A DNA stretch of 43,962 bases from Bacteroidota bacterium. GTDB taxonomy: Bacteria; Bacteroidota; Bacteroidia; Palsa-948. Position 1 is the first letter of the stretch. Every line of letters starts with the position of its first letter. This document shows positions 4,681 through 32,309 of this stretch, in pieces. The notes under the pieces were generated by a model. It saw only the letters and a program-made list of their open reading frames with translations, was not told the DNA's origin and ran no database searches. The stretch spans positions 1-43,962 of the forward strand of contig PLUL01000070.1 in assembly GCA_003164895.1 (NCBI GenBank), read 5' to 3'. The translations under genes and the position numbers were made by a program.

Positions 4681-5997
4681 TTGAATCTTGCTTCACTATC
4701 TCCTGTAGAAGAAACCAAACGTATCATTTACCTGGATGTTATTCGCGGCATTGCCATTCTCGGTATTTTGTTAATGAACATTTACAATTTTGGAATGGTA
4801 AGTTATTTACAGGATCGGTCCGGTATTTATGAAGGACTGAGAACATTAAATTTTAATATCTGGTTCTTAGGAAATGTTTTTATTGACGGAAAAATGCGCG
4901 GAATTTTTTCTATACTCTTCGGTGCAGGAATACTCTTGTTTGCCAGCAAAGCCGACAAAGGAACAACAGGCGCACATTACCGCAGAATGTTATGGTTATT
5001 AATATTCGCATTCATTGACATTTTTGTTTTCCTATGGAAAGGCGATATACTGCACGAGTATGCCATTTGCGGTATGCTTCTTTTCCCGCTTCGAAAATTA
5101 AAACCCATTTACCTTGTAACTATTTCATTCCTGCTATTAACTTTTAATATTTACTACCAAAGCTCTGGATATATAGAAATTCATGAGTTACGACACTCAG
5201 TACTCGAGTCGGATTCCTTATTGGCAAAAGGAAAAACACTTACCAAAAAACAAGATGATGACAAAAAGCATTGGGAAAGAATTTTAGGAAGTCGCCTGCC
5301 TTTAAACGATGCGGCAAAATATCGTAATGACAGCACTTATACCAAAGAATGCAGCATGAGGCAAGGAGGTTATGTCAAAAATAGAGAAGATGTCATTGAA
5401 ACTGCACAGATTCTAAAAGATCCTGAATATTATCTTGGATTTTTACCGGAGATTATAGCCATTTTATTAGGCATGGCATTGTTCAAATGGGAGATTTTTT
5501 CAGGCACTACAAGAAGAAGAAATTATTTTCTCCTGTGCTTATTAGGTGTTATCGGACTGGGATTTCAATTTTATATAACCTCAGTCACACCTTATACTCA
5601 AACTGACTTGGTCAATTTTATTGACAAAGGCAATGTTTTTATTGCATTCTCAGATGAATTCATCCGCATTTCAATCTGCCTTGGATATATTGGAGTGATC
5701 ATGCTCGTTTGTTTTTCTGGACGGATGCAAAAACTGAAACACTTTCTTGCTTGCACGGGTAAAATGGCATTTACAAATTACCTGATGCAATCTATTATCT
5801 GCACATTTATTTTTAATGGATACGGATTAGGACTTTTTGCAAAACTCCAACGATATGAATTAATGTTTGTTGTTGTTGCGATCTGGATATTTCAAATGGC
5901 TTTCAGTACACTGTGGTTAAAACGATTTCGCTGGGGTCCAATGGAATGGCTATGGAGATCCCTCACCTACTGGAAGAGAATACCGAATAAAATTTAA
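4681..5997 (+). CDS. DUF418/YeiB-family multipass membrane protein
   Basis: This 438-residue inner-membrane protein begins with the family signature RIIYLDVIRGIAILGILLMNI. A run of hydrophobic helices and a C-terminal DUF418-like part follow (CLGYIGVIMLVCFSGRMQ, then ACTGKMAFTNYLMQSI and a final WGPMEWLWRSLTYW). A soluble loop with charged residues (about 165-245) interrupts the helices. The family is distantly related to acyltransferase-3-like membrane proteins, and transport or acyl transfer is suspected but not shown. The start is a TTG at 4681: the next in-frame Met is inside the first helix, and homologs begin 10-15 residues before the RxxxLDxxRG motif. It overlaps the convergent lipoprotein gene by 4 bp. 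Confidence 0.85.
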   Translation: MNLASLSPVEETKRIIYLDVIRGIAILGILLMNIYNFGMVSYLQDRSGIYEGLRTLNFNIWFLGNVFIDGKMRGIFSILFGAGILLFASKADKGTTGAHYRRMLWLLIFAFIDIFVFLWKGDILHEYAICGMLLFPLRKLKPIYLVTISFLLLTFNIYYQSSGYIEIHELRHSVLESDSLLAKGKTLTKKQDDDKKHWERILGSRLPLNDAAKYRNDSTYTKECSMRQGGYVKNREDVIETAQILKDPEYYLGFLPEIIAILLGMALFKWEIFSGTTRRRNYFLLCLLGVIGLGFQFYITSVTPYTQTDLVNFIDKGNVFIAFSDEFIRISICLGYIGVIMLVCFSGRMQKLKHFLACTGKMAFTNYLMQSIICTFIFNGYGLGLFAKLQRYELMFVVVAIWIFQMAFSTLWLKRFRWGPMEWLWRSLTYWKRIPNKI

Positions 5998-7034
5998 TGC
6001 TTGGGAATTCCCAATCCGTACATTTTCTTTTGCTTTTGCTTTTTCATTTCTTTTTTTGCAAGACGAGCATTTGAATTCATAGGGTTGTTTTCAATTTTGT
6101 CGCGCTGCCGTTCTTCCCTTGATTTAAACCTTAAATGAAACCAGCCTGATTTCCTTTTTGTTTTTCTGTCAGTTCCTTTTTCGGCACTGTACTGCGATTT
6201 TTTATTCACTTTTGTTTTCACAGCAAAAGCATCTCCTGCATTCTTTGACTTGCGTTCTTCTCTCCTGAATTTACGTTTGGGTTTTTGTCCGATTGCTTTC
6301 GACCCATACTCTTTTATATAATTCTGTTTAGAGGCAAACGCATCTCCCAATTTTTTTGACTTTCGTTCATCTCTTTTGAATTTCCTTTTTGGTTTTGAAC
6401 CTGTAGCTTTTGAGCCATAATCTTTTATATAACTCTGTTTAGACGCAAATGCGTCGTCTTGTTCCTTTGACTTGCGTTCTTTCCTGTGGAACCTTCCTCT
6501 GGCTTTTCCGCCCGATGCTTTCTCACCGTAATCTTTTGTATAATTTTGTTTGGACGCAAATGCATCACCTAAAGTTTGTTGGTTGACCACATTTCTTTTA
6601 CCTCTCCGTCCTCGTTTATCATTTGCTTTCTCTCCATAATTTTTGGTTTCAGTTTTTGAAGCAAACGCATCATTCAAAGTTTGTTGCTTGACCAAATTTC
6701 TTTTACCCCTTCGTCCTCGTTTGCCATTTGCTTTATCACCATAATTTTTTGTTTCGGTTTTTGAAGCAAAGGCATCTGCTGATTTGGATTTTATTCTGCG
6801 AGAAGATGATTGAAATGCATCTTTTTGTGTAGAACCTTTTACTTTTTGTTTTTTTGAACGAAAAAAATCTTTCTGAGAATTTGTTTTTTGTCCTGTCGGT
6901 TTACTGCTGAAAAAACCATTCTCCGTTGTTGTTTTTTGTTTAGCAGGAATATCAGCCGACGGCATTCCGTTCTTGCTTTTGCACGCGGAAAGAACGATCG
7001 TTAGAAAAAGAAACCATATCAACAGAATTCTCAT
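5994..7034 (-). CDS. highly basic lipoprotein with 35-37 residue tandem repeats
   Basis: I do not recognise this family. The protein has 346 residues from the ATG at 7034. A signal peptide ends in the lipobox LSAC (Cys18), so it should be a lipid-anchored envelope protein. DAFA recurs at residues 87, 122, 157, 194, 231 and 268, giving five repeats of 35, 35, 37, 37 and 37 residues. The consensus is roughly DAFASKxxYxKxYGxKAxGxK followed by a cluster of Arg and Lys, with earlier degenerate copies (DFFRSK, DAFQSS). The C-terminus is also Lys/Arg rich, so the mature chain is strongly positive and probably extended. It could bind nucleic acid, lipopolysaccharide or acidic polysaccharide; this is inference from charge. 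An upstream in-frame ATG at 7055 would add MVQQKKK. Confidence 0.7.
   Translation of the reverse strand: MRILLIWFLFLTIVLSACKSKNGMPSADIPAKQKTTTENGFFSSKPTGQKTNSQKDFFRSKKQKVKGSTQKDAFQSSSRRIKSKSADAFASKTETKNYGDKANGKRGRRGKRNLVKQQTLNDAFASKTETKNYGEKANDKRGRRGKRNVVNQQTLGDAFASKQNYTKDYGEKASGGKARGRFHRKERKSKEQDDAFASKQSYIKDYGSKATGSKPKRKFKRDERKSKKLGDAFASKQNYIKEYGSKAIGQKPKRKFRREERKSKNAGDAFAVKTKVNKKSQYSAEKGTDRKTKRKSGWFHLRFKSREERQRDKIENNPMNSNARLAKKEMKKQKQKKMYGLGIPKH
6234..6776 (-). repeat. tandem repeat array, five units of about 105-111 bp
   Basis: This is the DNA counterpart of the repeats in the basic lipoprotein. Units begin at each DAFA codon set. The first two units are close copies of each other (both contain KTETKNYG and KRGRRGKRN). 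The last three form a second subgroup with 37 codons. The subgroups suggest stepwise duplication. Confidence 0.8.
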
Positions 7035-7121
7035 TTTCTTTTTTTGCTGAACCATAAAGATAAGTAGAAAGAAAAACCTGTTAGAAAAATAATATTTTCA
7101 ATGCGGAAATACTGCACACAT

Positions 7122-21121: not shown

Positions 21122-22816
21122 CTATCTCAATATCTTTCTCACAAAAGCAACGGTGAAATAACTCATCATAAACACGCCCATAAAACCTTCCATGGCGCTC
21201 ACCATCCTCAGCAATCCTGTTGTGTAATAATCGCCAAAGCCAACGGTGAGAAAAGTAACTGCGCTGTAATAAAACGCCACCGGCAATGAATGTGCATCAG
21301 GAAAATTATTGGAAGAAAAAATATTTGCATCACTTATCCGCGGCAAAATATAATATTGAGAACTGAACAAAGAGTAAACCACTCCCATGCTAAAAATTAC
21401 GCGGAGAGGATTAGTTGCATACTGCCCCATTTTATCGAACACCAGCCATTTGAAAAAATAAAACGGGTACGCCCACAATCCGTTTGTTTTATTTTTTTTC
21501 AATTCGGAATGCAACAGCCATTTTGCCTCGCAGCGCATAAATTCCACGTACGCTTTATCCTCGTCACCATATTTTCCAACCGCACGAAATTCTTCTTTGA
21601 GCATTCTGAATTGCTCTGCTTTTTCGAGCAACGATGTATCAGTTTGTTCGTAGATAAGATCTTTAACTCGGTTCTTTGTCCAGTCAATATTTATCCGCCC
21701 CATGCTTTTCATTCCTGAAAAATTAAAGATGAGGATGGGAATTTCATTTTCTTCAGGAACCAGATCAATGATGTCTCTCAAAATTGTTTCGCGTAAATTC
21801 AACAACGCGCACTGAGCAAAACGGAAATCAAAATACGCGCTCAATCGGCTTGCCTGAAAATTAATGGATACAACTTTTGATCTATAAAAACTTACTTTGT
21901 CGGACGAAAATTCTGTTCTTTCAAAAGACACTTCATTCGGACCAAAATCCACTTCTTCAAAATTCAAATCTCCTTTGCCAAAAACAGAAGAACGGAAACT
22001 CACCTTCGCATTGTTAAACTCACACCCTTCAAACGATACATCTCCATCGCCCCAATCCACGCGTTTGAAATCCACATGCTCGCCACCAAATTCCACCGCC
22101 TTGAAATCGGTTTTTCCGCTTCCAAAAGAACTTTTTTCAAATGAAACTCCTCCCTGAGTGAACTTTGCAAAACGGAAATCCGTTACGCCATTTCCCCATG
22201 TGACGGATTGAAAATCTATTTCCTTGCAATCGAATTTTGTATTTACAAAAAAAATATCACCCGAACCCAAATGCGCAAAACGAAAAGATAAATTTCCTGT
22301 TCCGAATTCAGCAAAACGAAAATCAAGGGTGCCTTCACCAAATCGTGTGCGCCTGAAACTTACCGCACCATTCCCGAATTTTGCATGGCTGAAATTAATA
22401 TTCCCATTGCCAAACATTGCTCCTTCAAACGTGATCTTGCTGTTCTCAAAAACAGAATGGGAAAAATCAACTTCAATATCACAATCAAAAAAAGCATTCT
22501 TGGCAAAGAATTTTTTCAACGTAACAGGCAAATGCTCAGTAAGAGAATTTCGTTTTCTAAATTCTGCAAGAGAAAAATTTTTGACATAACACTCATTCAA
22601 ACTGATGGGTTGATCCGTTTCCATCATTTCATAAATGGTATCGGCATGCAGATAACCATAATGTTTGGTTTCTTTTTTTCTTCCGTTTGCGTCAAAAAAA
22701 TCTATCTGGATCGTATTTCTATACACCGTTCCATCGGAAGAAGTAAATGGATTTTCAAGAATGGAAACTTTGAAATCAATCAGTGCGTGTTCCGGTTTAT
22801 GAAGAAGAATTTCCAT
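21122..22816 (-). CDS. two-helix potassium channel with 12-residue beta-solenoid-like repeats
   Basis: This is a 564-residue protein in three parts. Residues 1-110 are an N-terminal cap. Residues 111-314 form seventeen exact 12-residue repeats of pattern FGxGxxxFxxxx, with Phe at repeat position 8 in every unit and Phe, Leu or Trp at position 1 in nearly all. After a helical linker (about 390-440, FRMLKEEFRAVGKYGDEDKA), residues 470-564 form an Ion_trans_2 pore module: one helix, a pore loop with selectivity filter TVGFGD (524-529), and a second helix. It should be a tetrameric inner-membrane K+ channel with a large cytoplasmic repeat domain. Related channels carry 5-residue pentapeptide repeats; a strict 12-residue period is unusual to me. 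The gene converges on the E1 gene with an 8-bp gap. Confidence 0.88.
   Translation of the reverse strand: MEILLHKPEHALIDFKVSILENPFTSSDGTVYRNTIQIDFFDANGRKKETKHYGYLHADTIYEMMETDQPISLNECYVKNFSLAEFRKRNSLTEHLPVTLKKFFAKNAFFDCDIEVDFSHSVFENSKITFEGAMFGNGNINFSHAKFGNGAVSFRRTRFGEGTLDFRFAEFGTGNLSFRFAHLGSGDIFFVNTKFDCKEIDFQSVTWGNGVTDFRFAKFTQGGVSFEKSSFGSGKTDFKAVEFGGEHVDFKRVDWGDGDVSFEGCEFNNAKVSFRSSVFGKGDLNFEEVDFGPNEVSFERTEFSSDKVSFYRSKVVSINFQASRLSAYFDFRFAQCALLNLRETILRDIIDLVPEENEIPILIFNFSGMKSMGRINIDWTKNRVKDLIYEQTDTSLLEKAEQFRMLKEEFRAVGKYGDEDKAYVEFMRCEAKWLLHSELKKNKTNGLWAYPFYFFKWLVFDKMGQYATNPLRVIFSMGVVYSLFSSQYYILPRISDANIFSSNNFPDAHSLPVAFYYSAVTFLTVGFGDYYTTGLLRMVSAMEGFMGVFMMSYFTVAFVRKILR
21875..22486 (-). repeat. 17 tandem 36-bp coding repeats in the channel gene
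   Basis: The coding repeats correspond to residues 111-314 of the channel, with no insertion or deletion in 612 bp. Nucleotide identity between units is moderate, so the array is ancient and kept by selection on the protein pattern. Confidence 0.85.
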
Positions 22817-28218: not shown

Positions 28219-29157
28219 ATGACCGAACAAACAAATTTACCGGAGAAGAAAGAGAGAAGAAAGGGGGAAATTATTTATCTCCTCCTGCTTTTTCTTTTGC
28301 TTTCTTCCAATGGATTGATGGGCTGGTTATGGTGGAAAGACAAAGGCAAAATTGAAATTATAACTGTTGAAAAAGAAAACGTAAAAAAAGATGCCGAAGT
28401 TGTTAAGCAGGAACTCATCGCACTGAATGCACAATATGATAATCTGAAAACAAATAACAAAAAAATGAATGAAGAGATTGAAGCTAAAAAACTTGAGATT
28501 GGTGAACTACAAAAGCAACTCGAAAAACATAAAGACGATTCCTATATCATAGCTAAATTGAAAAGAGAAACGCAAACACTGCGAGACATCATGCAGCATT
28601 TTGTACATGAAATTGATTCCCTGAATACTTACAATAAAAATATTATTGCTGAACGAGAAGTGGTGAAGAAAGAACTGAAAACAGAAAAAGAAAAAAACAC
28701 CCAGCTCACCAAAGAAAAAGAAGATTTACAAAGCACCGTGAATATTGCATCAATGCTAAAAGCCGTGAGCTTGTCTGTTTCTGCAATTGCAGAAAAAAGA
28801 GGAGGCAAAAAACAGGTGGAAACCAAAAAAGCAAAGCACACCAATAAAATAAAAATCACTTTCACGCTTGCCGAAAATGCGGTCGCACGAAAAGGCGATC
28901 ACATAATTTATACGCGCATTATTTCCCCTGATGGAAAAGAAATGACTCAATCAGATGACTCAACGCATACTTTTACTTTCGGAAAATCTCATGGATACTG
29001 GGCAACAAAAAAAACAGTTAACTACATCAATGAAAATACCGATGTGGTTATGTATGCCAGCCCAAAACCTGGTGAAACTTTTATCAACGGGAAATATATG
29101 ATTGAAGTAAATACCGATGGCGTAACTATTGGCAACACCTCTCTTAAACTGGAATGA
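28219..29157 (+). CDS. membrane-anchored coiled-coil protein, paralog A
   Basis: This is a 312-residue protein of unknown function. A short charged N-terminus and one transmembrane helix (about 17-38, IIYLLLLFLLLSSNGLMGWLWW) are followed by a long coiled coil (about 45-185). The coiled coil contains TLRDIMQHFVHEIDSLNT. The C-terminal beta domain of about 100 residues (KIKITFTLAENAVARKG to TIGNTSLKLE) looks Ig-like. Topology predicts the coiled coil and beta domain in the periplasm. The protein at 31386-32309 is a full-length paralog. Its stop overlaps the WG-repeat gene start as ATGA, so the two are translationally coupled. Confidence 0.8.
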   Translation: MTEQTNLPEKKERRKGEIIYLLLLFLLLSSNGLMGWLWWKDKGKIEIITVEKENVKKDAEVVKQELIALNAQYDNLKTNNKKMNEEIEAKKLEIGELQKQLEKHKDDSYIIAKLKRETQTLRDIMQHFVHEIDSLNTYNKNIIAEREVVKKELKTEKEKNTQLTKEKEDLQSTVNIASMLKAVSLSVSAIAEKRGGKKQVETKKAKHTNKIKITFTLAENAVARKGDHIIYTRIISPDGKEMTQSDDSTHTFTFGKSHGYWATKKTVNYINENTDVVMYASPKPGETFINGKYMIEVNTDGVTIGNTSLKLE

Positions 29158-31307
29158 AAAAATATATTTCTATTTTCTTTTTCCTTTTTATTAATTCAGT
29201 ATTTCTTTTTGCCGGCTCACTGGAGAAAGGATTTGAAGCTTTGAAAATTTACGATTACTTCCATGCAAAAGAATTATTTGAAAAATCTTTTAAGAATCAC
29301 CCGGCTGGCGCATCCTTCGGATTGAGTACGATTTTTTACAGAAATGACAATCCGTTTTCTAATATTGATTCTGCATATAAATACATTCTTATCTCTGAAA
29401 AAACTTTTAAATCTTCGGATGCAAAAGAAAAAGAAACTCTTCTAAAAGTTTCTATCAATCTGGTTGCGATTGATGATTTAAAAGAAAAAATAATTCAGAA
29501 AGCATTTGAAAAGGCAAAAACAGAAAATACAATTGAAACTTTTAATTGGTTCATAAAATGTTTTTCTCATCACACCCTGAAAAATGATGCAATCAAGTTG
29601 CGGAATAAGCTTGCTTTTGAGAACGCAAAAAAAATAAATACTCCTCAATCGTATAAAGATTTCATAGCAATTTATCCCGATGCGGATGAAATAAAAGATG
29701 CACAGTGGCTCTATGAATTCACGTTGTTTAATGCCATGACTAAACAAAACAACATTGAAACCTACGATGCCTTTGTAAAGAAGTTCCCAAAAAGTCCGTA
29801 TCGTTTTCAGGCGGAAGACAGTCTTTTTTCTTTTTCAACTCAGAATCAAACAGCTGAAGAATATCATCGTTTCATAAAAAAATATCCTGAGAATCACAAT
29901 GCAAAAAAAGCATGGGATAAAATTTATTTTCTTTCAACTGTTGATTTTACTCCTAAAGTAATTTCAAAATTCCTTTCTGACTTTCCTGATTTCCCAGACA
30001 AACCAAAAGCAAAAGCCGATTTGGAACGTGCTAAAATGAATTTATTTCCTGTTCAGCAGGATGGAAAATGGGGATTCATTGATTCTATTGGCGAAGCGAT
30101 TATTCCTTTTACATATGATTGGGCTGATAATTTTTCAGAAGGTGCTGCAGTTGTGATCCGTAGCGAAAAAGCCGGATACATTAACAAAGCAGGAAATATT
30201 ATCATCCCGCTTTCTTACGATGAAGCAAATTCATTTCATGGCTCTGTTGCAATTGCCAAAAAGAATAGCAAGTTTGGACTCATTCACAAAACTGGAAAAC
30301 AAATTCTTCCATTTGAGTTTGACGACATCAGCGAAAACGAAAATCCCACAGAAGAAAAAATAATTCATGCCCTGAAAGAAGGTGTTTCAAAATTTTATGA
30401 CACAAAGGGAAAACTTTTTGCTGAAGGAAAATTTGAGAAAGCAGGAGATTTTTCCTGCGGAAGAGCCTACATCGTTCAGAAAGGTCAATATGGTTTCATC
30501 AATAAAAGAGGTGAAATAATTATACCTGCAATTTATGAGTGGGTTGAAAATTTTCGCAATGGAACAGCCCGAATCAAGCTGGATAATAAATTCGGATTAA
30601 CAGATACTTCCGGAAAAATAATTCTTCCTTGTGAATACGACAGGATAGATGACTTTTCAGAAGGACTTGTGCGTGTTGCCAAGGAAAAGAAATTCGGTTT
30701 TGCAGATGAAAATGGAAACATTGTCATTCCGATAAAATATAATTACTCTTCTGAAATCTCTGAAACAAACGGATTTAAAAACGGGCTGGCAAAAGTTGAG
30801 CAAAATAAAAAACGCGGGTTGATTGATAAATCAGGAAAATTAATTATTCCTTGCGAGTTTGATGACATTCGTAATTTTTCAGAAGAACTTTGCGCTGTAA
30901 AACAAAAAAACAAATGGGGCTTCATTGATAAAAACAAAAAACAGAAAATAAATTTTCAGTTTGATTATGTATGGGATTTTTCGGAAGGATTTGCACGTGT
31001 AAAAGTAAAGGGCAAAATTGGTTTCATTGATCAAAAAGGAGTATTTATTACTCCTCCCGCTTACGATGATGCAACGGATTATAAAAACGGCTTTACTATT
31101 ATAATTCTTGGCGGAAAAAAAGGAGCCCTTGACCCATCAGGAAAGACTTTGAAATTTCAGGAGCCCTCGGGAACAGCAATGATTCCCTGCGAAATGGACG
31201 AAATAGAATTTCTTGGAAACGGAATGTTAAAACTTGAGAAGAACGGAAAGTCCGCTTACTTCAATCTCTCTCTTAAAAAACAAGTTTGGACTGAAACAGG
31301 GTTTTAG
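29154..31307 (+). CDS. WG-repeat protein with N-terminal helical repeats
   Basis: This is a 717-residue secreted or periplasmic protein with a signal peptide (ISIFFFLFINSVFLFAG). The first part (about 20-300) is helical and TPR-like, including YDYFHAKELFEKSFKNHP and a series of FxKxFPxS/YPE-type units that resemble sel1/YbgF-like repeats. From about 300 to the end there are about ten or eleven WG repeats, such as GKWGFIDSIGEAIIPFTYD and GQYGFINKRGEIIIPAIYE. WG repeats are presumed binding scaffolds. It is translationally coupled to the upstream coiled-coil gene, and a paralog of that gene follows 78 bp downstream. Confidence 0.88.
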   Translation: MKKYISIFFFLFINSVFLFAGSLEKGFEALKIYDYFHAKELFEKSFKNHPAGASFGLSTIFYRNDNPFSNIDSAYKYILISEKTFKSSDAKEKETLLKVSINLVAIDDLKEKIIQKAFEKAKTENTIETFNWFIKCFSHHTLKNDAIKLRNKLAFENAKKINTPQSYKDFIAIYPDADEIKDAQWLYEFTLFNAMTKQNNIETYDAFVKKFPKSPYRFQAEDSLFSFSTQNQTAEEYHRFIKKYPENHNAKKAWDKIYFLSTVDFTPKVISKFLSDFPDFPDKPKAKADLERAKMNLFPVQQDGKWGFIDSIGEAIIPFTYDWADNFSEGAAVVIRSEKAGYINKAGNIIIPLSYDEANSFHGSVAIAKKNSKFGLIHKTGKQILPFEFDDISENENPTEEKIIHALKEGVSKFYDTKGKLFAEGKFEKAGDFSCGRAYIVQKGQYGFINKRGEIIIPAIYEWVENFRNGTARIKLDNKFGLTDTSGKIILPCEYDRIDDFSEGLVRVAKEKKFGFADENGNIVIPIKYNYSSEISETNGFKNGLAKVEQNKKRGLIDKSGKLIIPCEFDDIRNFSEELCAVKQKNKWGFIDKNKKQKINFQFDYVWDFSEGFARVKVKGKIGFIDQKGVFITPPAYDDATDYKNGFTIIILGGKKGALDPSGKTLKFQEPSGTAMIPCEMDEIEFLGNGMLKLEKNGKSAYFNLSLKKQVWTETGF

Positions 31308-31320
31308 TTTGTATCGTTAA

Positions 31321-31328
31321 TATGTTTG
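31321..31328 (+). promoter_or_regulatory. predicted -7 element of coiled-coil paralog B
   Basis: TATGTTTG matches TAnnTTTG, 57 bp before the ATG at 31386. It sits inside an imperfect inverted repeat GTTAA...TTAAC. Confidence 0.4.
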
Positions 31329-31385
31329 TTAACATTTCACAATTTTTAACATTCATTCCGCGTTATCTATCCATAATTTTACTTT

Positions 31386-32309
31386 ATGGAAACAAACGAA
31401 ACCTCGCAACAAGAGAACAAGCCAAAGCGCGATAAACTCTTTCTCTATTTATTTATTTTCATGTCTGTTGCCTGCGCAGTTCTTGCATGGCTGTTTTGGT
31501 CGCAGAAAAATGAAACGCAAACCGTAGTTACCGAAAATATTCAAATCACTCAGGAATCGGAAGTAGTAAAAAAAGATCTGAACCAATTGCAAACCGAATA
31601 TGATGCGCTGAAAACTGATGACGAAGGAATAAAAAAAGAAATTGACGAAAAGAAAGAAGAGATCGCAAAACTTCAGACAGAAGCCGAAAAACACAAGAAC
31701 GATGCTTATATAATCTCCAAACTGAAAAAAGAAACCAAAACTTTGCGCGACATCATGCAGCATTTTGTGGTGGAGATAGATTCGCTGAACACAATGAATA
31801 AAAAACTTATTGCTGAGAAAGATTCCGTCAGCACAGAACTGCACAGCGAAAAGAAAAAAAGTTCTACGCTGCAATCAGAAAAAGATAATCTCTACAAAGT
31901 GGGGTCAGTGATAAAAGCAAGCGGGATGACGGTAACGGCTTTCAACGTAAAATCAAAAAGCAAAGAGAACGATACACAGAAAGCAAGGAAGACCGATAAG
32001 ATAAAAATCACATTTAATCTCAGCGAAAACAGAATTGCTCCCAAAGGCAAACGCGAAATTTATGTGCGCATGATTACACCCGATGGAAAAGAGTGGACCG
32101 AATCTGCCGATGCCGACCACATGTTCACTTTCAATAACTCAAAAGGATTTTTTGCCGCCAAGAAATCCATCACGTATGAGAACGATGAAATGCCTGTGGA
32201 AATTCTTGTGAAGAAAAAAGATAAAGAAGAATTTCTTCCGGGAAAATATCAGATCGAAGTGAACATGGATAACAACACGATCGGAAGTGCTTCGCTAGAG
32301 TTGGAATAA
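31386..32309 (+). CDS. membrane-anchored coiled-coil protein, paralog B
   Basis: This 307-residue paralog of the protein at 28219 has the same order of parts: one N-terminal transmembrane helix (LFLYLFIFMSVACAVLAWLFW), a Lys/Glu-rich coiled coil (about 45-180) and a C-terminal beta domain (KIKITFNLSENRIAPKG to TIGSASLELE). The two share the nearly identical core TLRDIMQHFVxEIDSLNTxNK and the SPDGKE/TPDGKE strand. The function is unknown. The duplication brackets the WG-repeat gene, so the three may form one envelope complex. Confidence 0.8.
   Translation: METNETSQQENKPKRDKLFLYLFIFMSVACAVLAWLFWSQKNETQTVVTENIQITQESEVVKKDLNQLQTEYDALKTDDEGIKKEIDEKKEEIAKLQTEAEKHKNDAYIISKLKKETKTLRDIMQHFVVEIDSLNTMNKKLIAEKDSVSTELHSEKKKSSTLQSEKDNLYKVGSVIKASGMTVTAFNVKSKSKENDTQKARKTDKIKITFNLSENRIAPKGKREIYVRMITPDGKEWTESADADHMFTFNNSKGFFAAKKSITYENDEMPVEILVKKKDKEEFLPGKYQIEVNMDNNTIGSASLELE

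Follow-up and report, generated by a model that had tools for sequence, protein, structure and literature searches.

A polycationic repeat protein of a Bacteroidota bacterium and an apparently undescribed class of exported basic proteins with DxF motifs

Results

The repeat gene and its product

We analysed a stretch of 43,962 nucleotides from a Bacteroidota bacterium (contig PLUL01000070.1 of assembly GCA_003164895.1, positions 1 to 43,962), which we call the window. The initial annotation of this DNA had described a polycationic repeat ORF at 5994-7034, which lies on the minus strand, and both the ORF and its coordinates were verified: starting from the ATG at 7034 it encodes 346 amino acids, and another in-frame ATG at 7055 would add seven residues, giving a 353-aa precursor. 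The 3' end of the gene overlaps that of a convergent DUF418 gene by 4 bp, and the gene is single-copy in the genome (a 3.25 Mb assembly in 80 contigs). Scanning for promoter and terminator consensus sequences at the gene returned two promoter-like sites where 2.5 are expected, and none on the gene's strand. The features of the locus are as follows.

5994..7034, minus strand: coding sequence of the polycationic repeat lipoprotein precursor, 346 aa (ORF reading; other in-frame ATG at 7055)
6981..7034, minus strand: putative signal peptide, residues 1-17, and lipobox Cys18 (LSAC), assigned by eye; AF2 predicts a helix at residues 2-21
6777..6920, minus strand: degenerate DxF motifs (NGF, DFF, DAF) in residues 39-86 at intervals of 17, 16 and 15, from motif spacing
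6672..6776, minus strand: full unit 1, residues 87-121 (35 aa), from repeat analysis
6567..6671, minus strand: full unit 2, residues 122-156 (35 aa), 87% identical in DNA to unit 1
6456..6566, minus strand: full unit 3, residues 157-193 (37 aa), from repeat analysis
6345..6455, minus strand: full unit 4, residues 194-230 (37 aa), from repeat analysis
6234..6344, minus strand: full unit 5, residues 231-267 (37 aa), from repeat analysis
6123..6233, minus strand: diverged sixth unit from residue 268 on (DAFAVK, without YGxKA); the end at residue 304 assumes 37 aa
5997..6122, minus strand: C-terminal basic tail, residues 305-346, ending in KKQKQKKMYGLGIPKH, from the genus alignment and the AF2 model

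The signal peptide, MRILLIWFLFLTIVLSAC, has a good lipobox, LSAC, at residues 15-18 as judged by eye, with Cys18 preceded by MRILLIWFLFLTIVLSA and followed by KSKNG. The mature chain of 329 residues contains 68 Lys, 29 Arg, 17 Asp and 16 Glu, which amounts to a net charge of +64 and a computed pI of 10.56, bearing out the strong positive charge that had been claimed for it.

The five full units make up 181 of the 329 mature residues, and each starts with DAFASK, followed by a YGxKA motif whose Tyr lies 9 or 10 residues past the Phe and then by an Arg/Lys cluster. The tetrapeptide DAFA occurs six times in the protein, compared with a maximum of one in 10,000 residue shuffles, and YGxKA occurs five times. 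The initial annotation had assigned all three features to every repeat of 35-37 residues; this holds for the five full units, but the sixth unit has DAFAVK and no YGxKA, and a degenerate DAFQSS begins at residue 72, so that the three features are not found in every repeat. The motif intervals run 17, 16 and 15 near the N-terminus and then 35, 35, 37, 37 and 37. At the DNA level the units are 87% identical inside the 35-aa pair, 68-77% inside the 37-aa trio and 56-60% across these two subgroups, in agreement with the subdivision noticed earlier. The peptide DAFASK is identical in all five full units and yet shows synonymous codon differences at D, A, A and S, suggesting that the peptide is under selection.

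An AF2 model of the protein, built from a two-sequence alignment with one partial relative, has a mean pLDDT of 49.8, with no element in the repeats and two short low-confidence helices at the C-terminus. The repeat chain is probably intrinsically disordered, for which a model from so shallow an alignment is weak support.

The window holds further repeat proteins of other kinds. A 564-aa protein encoded at 21122-22816 (minus strand) has F-rich repeats of about 20 residues that look pentapeptide-like by eye, for instance FGNGNINFSHAKFGNG, and its C-terminal stretch resembles, also by eye, a potassium-channel pore (VTFLTVGFGDYYTTG). At 28219-32309 (plus strand) a 717-aa repeat protein, WG-type by eye, is encoded between two similar coiled-coil membrane proteins of 307-312 aa; at L107:380-1390, upstream of yfiR, the same genome encodes a second protein of the WG type.

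Homologs of the repeat gene in the genus

The repeat gene was found in all seven genus genomes searched, although G005 has only a piece of it, at the end of a contig. Five of the seven (the window's genome, G001, G003, G004 and G006) carry it downstream of infB and on the strand of that gene, infB being confirmed by Pfam in the window alone and recognized by likeness in the other four; the surroundings of the repeat gene in G002 are different. Among the invariant columns of the genus alignment are the D, F, Y, G and K of the motifs, and the C-terminal tail contains many such columns as well. The tail is thus conserved as part of the chain, which argues against a polyprotein precursor that cleavage at dibasic sites would break up into numerous small peptides. 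The KR and RR clusters within the units would suit such processing, but the basic residues are distributed along the units and not placed at their borders (by eye), and we regard this reading as the least probable of those considered.

Full units measure 34-38 aa across the genus, where motif spacing of 15-17 residues is confined to the part near the N-terminus, and the number of units varies by species. Adjacent units are up to 97% identical in DNA in G006 and 95% in G003, indicating a recent change in copy number, as the initial annotation had supposed. The six complete genus proteins have net charges of +61 to +116 and pI values of 10.4-10.6, where a fixed 22 residues were removed as signal in the five homologs. 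Such values, together with the free variation of length and unit number among species, would be expected of a purely electrostatic envelope binder, which coats or cross-links LPS, peptidoglycan or other polyanions, its aromatic motifs adding stickiness and no specific protein partner being involved.

A lipobox is present in only two of the six complete genus proteins, those of the window and G006. In the other four (G001-G004, the GTG start codon of G001 being our choice) the signal peptide ends in x-A/G followed by Q, and a small-residue end followed by Q is the signal-peptidase-I pattern given for Bacteroidetes as the Q-rule (PMC5837995). Therefore, the genus has no constant lipid anchor: the earlier view of a lipid-anchored protein stands, as a prediction, for the window protein and that of G006, but not for the four with a site of the signal-peptidase-I type. 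This inconstancy is also compatible with electrostatic binding.

Surface lipoproteins of Bacteroidetes, as characterized in PMC5080379, carry an acidic export signal of the QKDDE, SDDDD or SDDFE type after the Cys. The window protein resembles them in its phylum and in its precursor of the signal-peptidase-II type, but differs from them in that KSKNG contains no acidic residue and in that the lipobox is inconstant in its genus. By this rule, which may differ in the present lineage, the chain more probably lies in the periplasm than on the surface. A surface-exposed lipoprotein would bind the ligands suggested in the initial annotation, namely extracellular DNA, LPS or acidic glycans, and the lipobox and the strong positive charge of the window protein are in line with it; however, given the residues after the Cys and the missing lipobox in four of the six complete genus proteins, we find surface exposure and binding of extracellular DNA quite improbable.

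A wider group of exported basic proteins with DxF motifs

The window protein had been thought to belong to no known family, and the searches agree: no Pfam or NCBIfam family scored over its cut-off, the best PHROG had an E-value of 0.08, and no PDB sequence matched at E<=1. Among nine relatives scanned against Pfam only FAINT reached the cut-off, in an f8 protein in which no single stretch passed alone, and five relatives scanned against NCBIfam matched no family. We also considered an origin from phages or plasmids and rejected it, as the window protein had no match in plasmids or phages and no relative by the genus alignment occurred among 600 pattern matches in viral contigs.

Searching 395 genomes of the class with a profile of the genus proteins recovered the seven genus members and one further genome, G138 (family f23), at 9.8e-12. 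In a search with the G138 protein, 14 of 99 genomes were matched, G138 included, and the proteins matched are exported and basic and consist of D-x-F-[AST]-x-[KR] motifs; we call them the DxF-16 group. The window protein has both an export signal (signals judged by eye) and the strongly basic chain typical of this group. The sequence D-S/T-x is an O-glycosylation motif, and we dropped it as an explanation of the DxF motif since the middle residue is often Ala.

When 15 distant exported repeat proteins were scored with the genus profile, eight of them reached E<=0.01 (Z 1000). Thirteen of the 15 outscored every one of their 200 composition shuffles, four of these 13 with negative scores. Reversing the sequence lowered the score in 15 of 15, as did swapping D/N and F within the motif. 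However, two f10 proteins, L054 and L055, were equalled by 78 and 14 of their 200 shuffles, so that their tie to the window protein consists of shared motif and architecture only. Moreover, since composition shuffles lose the repeat structure, these comparisons do not fully separate common descent from convergence of motifs.

At the DNA level, a pattern of three DxF motifs at a period of 16 matched 53 of 365 genomes of the class, compared with 63 of 365 for the reversed control (counted from the table), so the bare tally shows no enrichment. The group is set apart only by runs of consecutive matches in exported basic frames: 20 genomes had consecutive in-register matches in such frames and four more had one such match, giving 24 accepted carriers among the 365, in families f4, f5, f10, f18, f23, f24, f46 and f55 (export signals by eye). 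The remaining 29 of the 53 pattern-matched genomes were rejected, with the ORF opened for G090 and the others judged from the listed matches; pattern loci L134-L163 were not inspected singly. Several of the rejected matches are low-complexity DNA, namely those in G276, the listed hits in G106 and three hits in G196 on another contig; G106 counts as a carrier by protein search and not by the DNA pattern. Adding f8, found by protein search, and f1, that of the window, to the eight families found by pattern gives a DxF group of ten families in the Bacteroidia.

Many C-termini look alike by eye (LFQPGVLPK, LFQPGIVPK, LFGPGVGPK, LFEPKVLWYK, LWGGTIGKR and LFGKPMF), but the f18 ends differ and the genus end, YGLGIPKH, is only a loose fit. 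A search of the open literature gave, among the matches listed, no title concerning such proteins, and the string 'DAFASK' was absent. These repeat proteins are apparently an undescribed class in Bacteroidota, of which the window gene is one member.

The pattern search also led to two repeats of another nature. In G090, L176:1128-1958 (minus strand) encodes an exported protein of another kind, which is not basic and has a 16-residue repeat of the DQFGNPVAPQQNVVYV type. Contigs C24, C193 and C203 of G106 contain repeat DNA of the GATCGCTTCGCTGTA type, probably non-coding, that matches the DxF-16 DNA pattern.

Sixteen-residue spacing of the motifs

The related proteins have a 16-residue motif period, a feature absent from the initial annotation. 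Intervals between successive motifs are exactly 16 in 56 of 85 cases in f23, 10 of 12 in f10, 9 of 12 in f55, 8 of 12 in f18, 4 of 6 in f46 and 2 of 3 in f4; the corresponding count is 3 of 12 in f8, and f24 has seven intervals of 15 and seven of 16 among 18. Thus, most intervals are exactly 16 in six of the eight families tabulated. By autocorrelation of F positions, the top lag is 16 in 13 of 15 non-genus proteins, in 11 of which none of 500 shuffles reached it, and 39 in those of G013 and G196; f23 and f8 also have 39-aa units. In the six genus proteins the top lag falls at 34-37; no shuffle matched it in three of them, and for the window protein, G002 and G004 it was reached by 9, 54 and 136 of 500 shuffles, respectively. 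Given the 34-38-aa units of the genus and the 39-aa units of f23 and f8, a strict ruler of 16 residues does not fit the window protein.

We compared the linkers of successive 16-mers, taking pairs chosen for an F at +16, so that the linker figure alone is informative; the rows for G001 and G005 were left out of this table. Linker identity is 6-12% in f55 (one genome) and f4 (six genomes), where the background is 7-8%, which indicates that the spacing outlasts sequence likeness. Other proteins with at least five pairs have linkers 12-62% identical, so the regularity partly reflects recent duplication, especially in f23, f24 and f18.

This spacing, kept between linkers near background in two families, and the constancy of D and F are not needed for charge, and D is an acidic residue retained in a basic chain; both points weigh against the purely electrostatic reading. 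The same period would fit a regular fold, in which every 16-mer would form one coil or hairpin, either of a beta-solenoid or of an amyloid-like fibre, the F lying in the core and the basic residues outside. The f10 proteins lend this some plausibility, with a second F at +10 in 10 of 40 F sites and middles that are Gly-rich by eye. However, only 14-16% of the residues in the genus proteins are hydrophobic (ILVMFYW), the AF2 model of the window protein has no strands (from its shallow alignment), and f1, f8 and f23 have units of 34-39 aa, which do not follow the period, so that a regular fold appears unlikely.

Neighbouring genes and type IX secretion

Some of the relatives are encoded near genes of the type IX secretion system (T9SS). 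In f5 the repeat gene, a recO-like gene and porZ follow one another on one strand in all three genomes (G056, G092 and G285), where PorZ is over its cut-off in each and RecO, called on two, is below it. A PorV-like gene, below cut-off, occurs in f23, next to the repeat gene in G196 and second from it in G168. About 3 kb from the f8 repeat gene there is a PorV2 gene over cut-off, and a PorP-type gene is two genes away in f4 (G009) and several genes off in f24 (by eye) and f55. No neighbour of this type was noticed by eye in f10, f18, f46 or the genus loci. These genomes commonly hold T9SS-type genes, and we regard the por/spr linkage as tentative.

The window protein and five relatives were scanned against the Por and Gld families of NCBIfam, and none matched. 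SprA was found in 339 of the 350 class genomes, that of the window among them, and is therefore so nearly universal that its co-occurrence is uninformative on a role in T9SS. Against a strict tie to this system stands G004, a genus member whose genome is 95% complete and which has the repeat gene without an SprA match. Similarly, GldJ exceeded its cut-off in 12 of 18 carriers and in 8 of 18 genomes in which no DxF-16 protein was found, with some match in all 36, so there is no clear difference between the two sets.

We also rejected a link to the YfiR cluster. Among the 30 yfiR loci opened, from 111 genomes with a match, nine had a small basic exported ORF beside yfiR (seven of f33, one of f24 and one of f55), but none of the five genus f1 loci did. 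The f33 loci (L103, L104, L105, L108, L109, L113 and L117) encode very basic exported proteins of about 110-170 aa by a cluster of yfiR, TPR and HAMP-protein genes. Some of these short proteins carry one or two DxF or ExF motifs, and their homology to the DxF group is a candidate one. The last gene of this cluster resembles the phosphatase SiaA, below cut-off (G072).

Known systems offer two further comparisons. Nebulin, a ruler of the muscle thin filament, consists of repeats of about 35 residues with one SDxxYK motif each, and a series of these repeats binds a periodic partner (PMC3859903). The likeness, which is one of analogy only, lies in repeats of about 35 residues with one short motif each; nebulin differs in being eukaryotic and reportedly helical, and most of the related DxF families use a 16-residue unit. 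The proteins of the T9SS and gliding track (PorK/GldK, PorN/GldN and GldJ) are envelope proteins of the same phylum, and some of our relatives' genes lie near porZ, porV-like or porP/sprF genes, but the repeat proteins scanned had no Por or Gld match and no such linkage was seen beside the window gene or its genus homologs.

The PorKN ring of P. gingivalis has about 33 units and outer diameters of 450 and 540 Å (PMC12421860), from which we compute 43-51 Å per unit, against 50-54 Å for 16 extended residues. One might accordingly imagine a nebulin-like tape of the T9SS or gliding track, with one DxF motif per protomer and the protomer spacing setting the 16-residue step. This idea derives from the coincidence in length and the patchy por gene linkage, and we hold it to be very unlikely.

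Discussion

The sequences show the export signals, the charge, the repetition of the motifs, the constancy of their residues and, in most of the related families tabulated, the 16-residue spacing; we infer that the chain would be disordered, periplasmic and engaged in multivalent docking. We tentatively favour an exported polycationic tape whose many DxF motifs dock onto a repetitive partner in the envelope. The chain would be exported and most probably stay in the periplasm, sometimes tethered by a lipid. Each D-x-F-[AST]-x-[KR] motif, together with YGxK[AS] in the genus, would act as a short linear binding motif, and the serial copies may attach to a partner that is itself repetitive, situated at or close to the inner face of the outer membrane. 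The Lys/Arg linkers would keep the chain on anionic envelope surfaces such as LPS and peptidoglycan, and the copy number would set its length and avidity. Binding by charge alone is almost as likely as this tape, and is itself no better than possible.

The finding amounts to an unannotated class of exported, highly basic and probably disordered proteins in Bacteroidota, a phylum whose envelope machines, type IX secretion and gliding, are under study. The 16-residue spacing in many of its members is a physical clue to what these chains bind.
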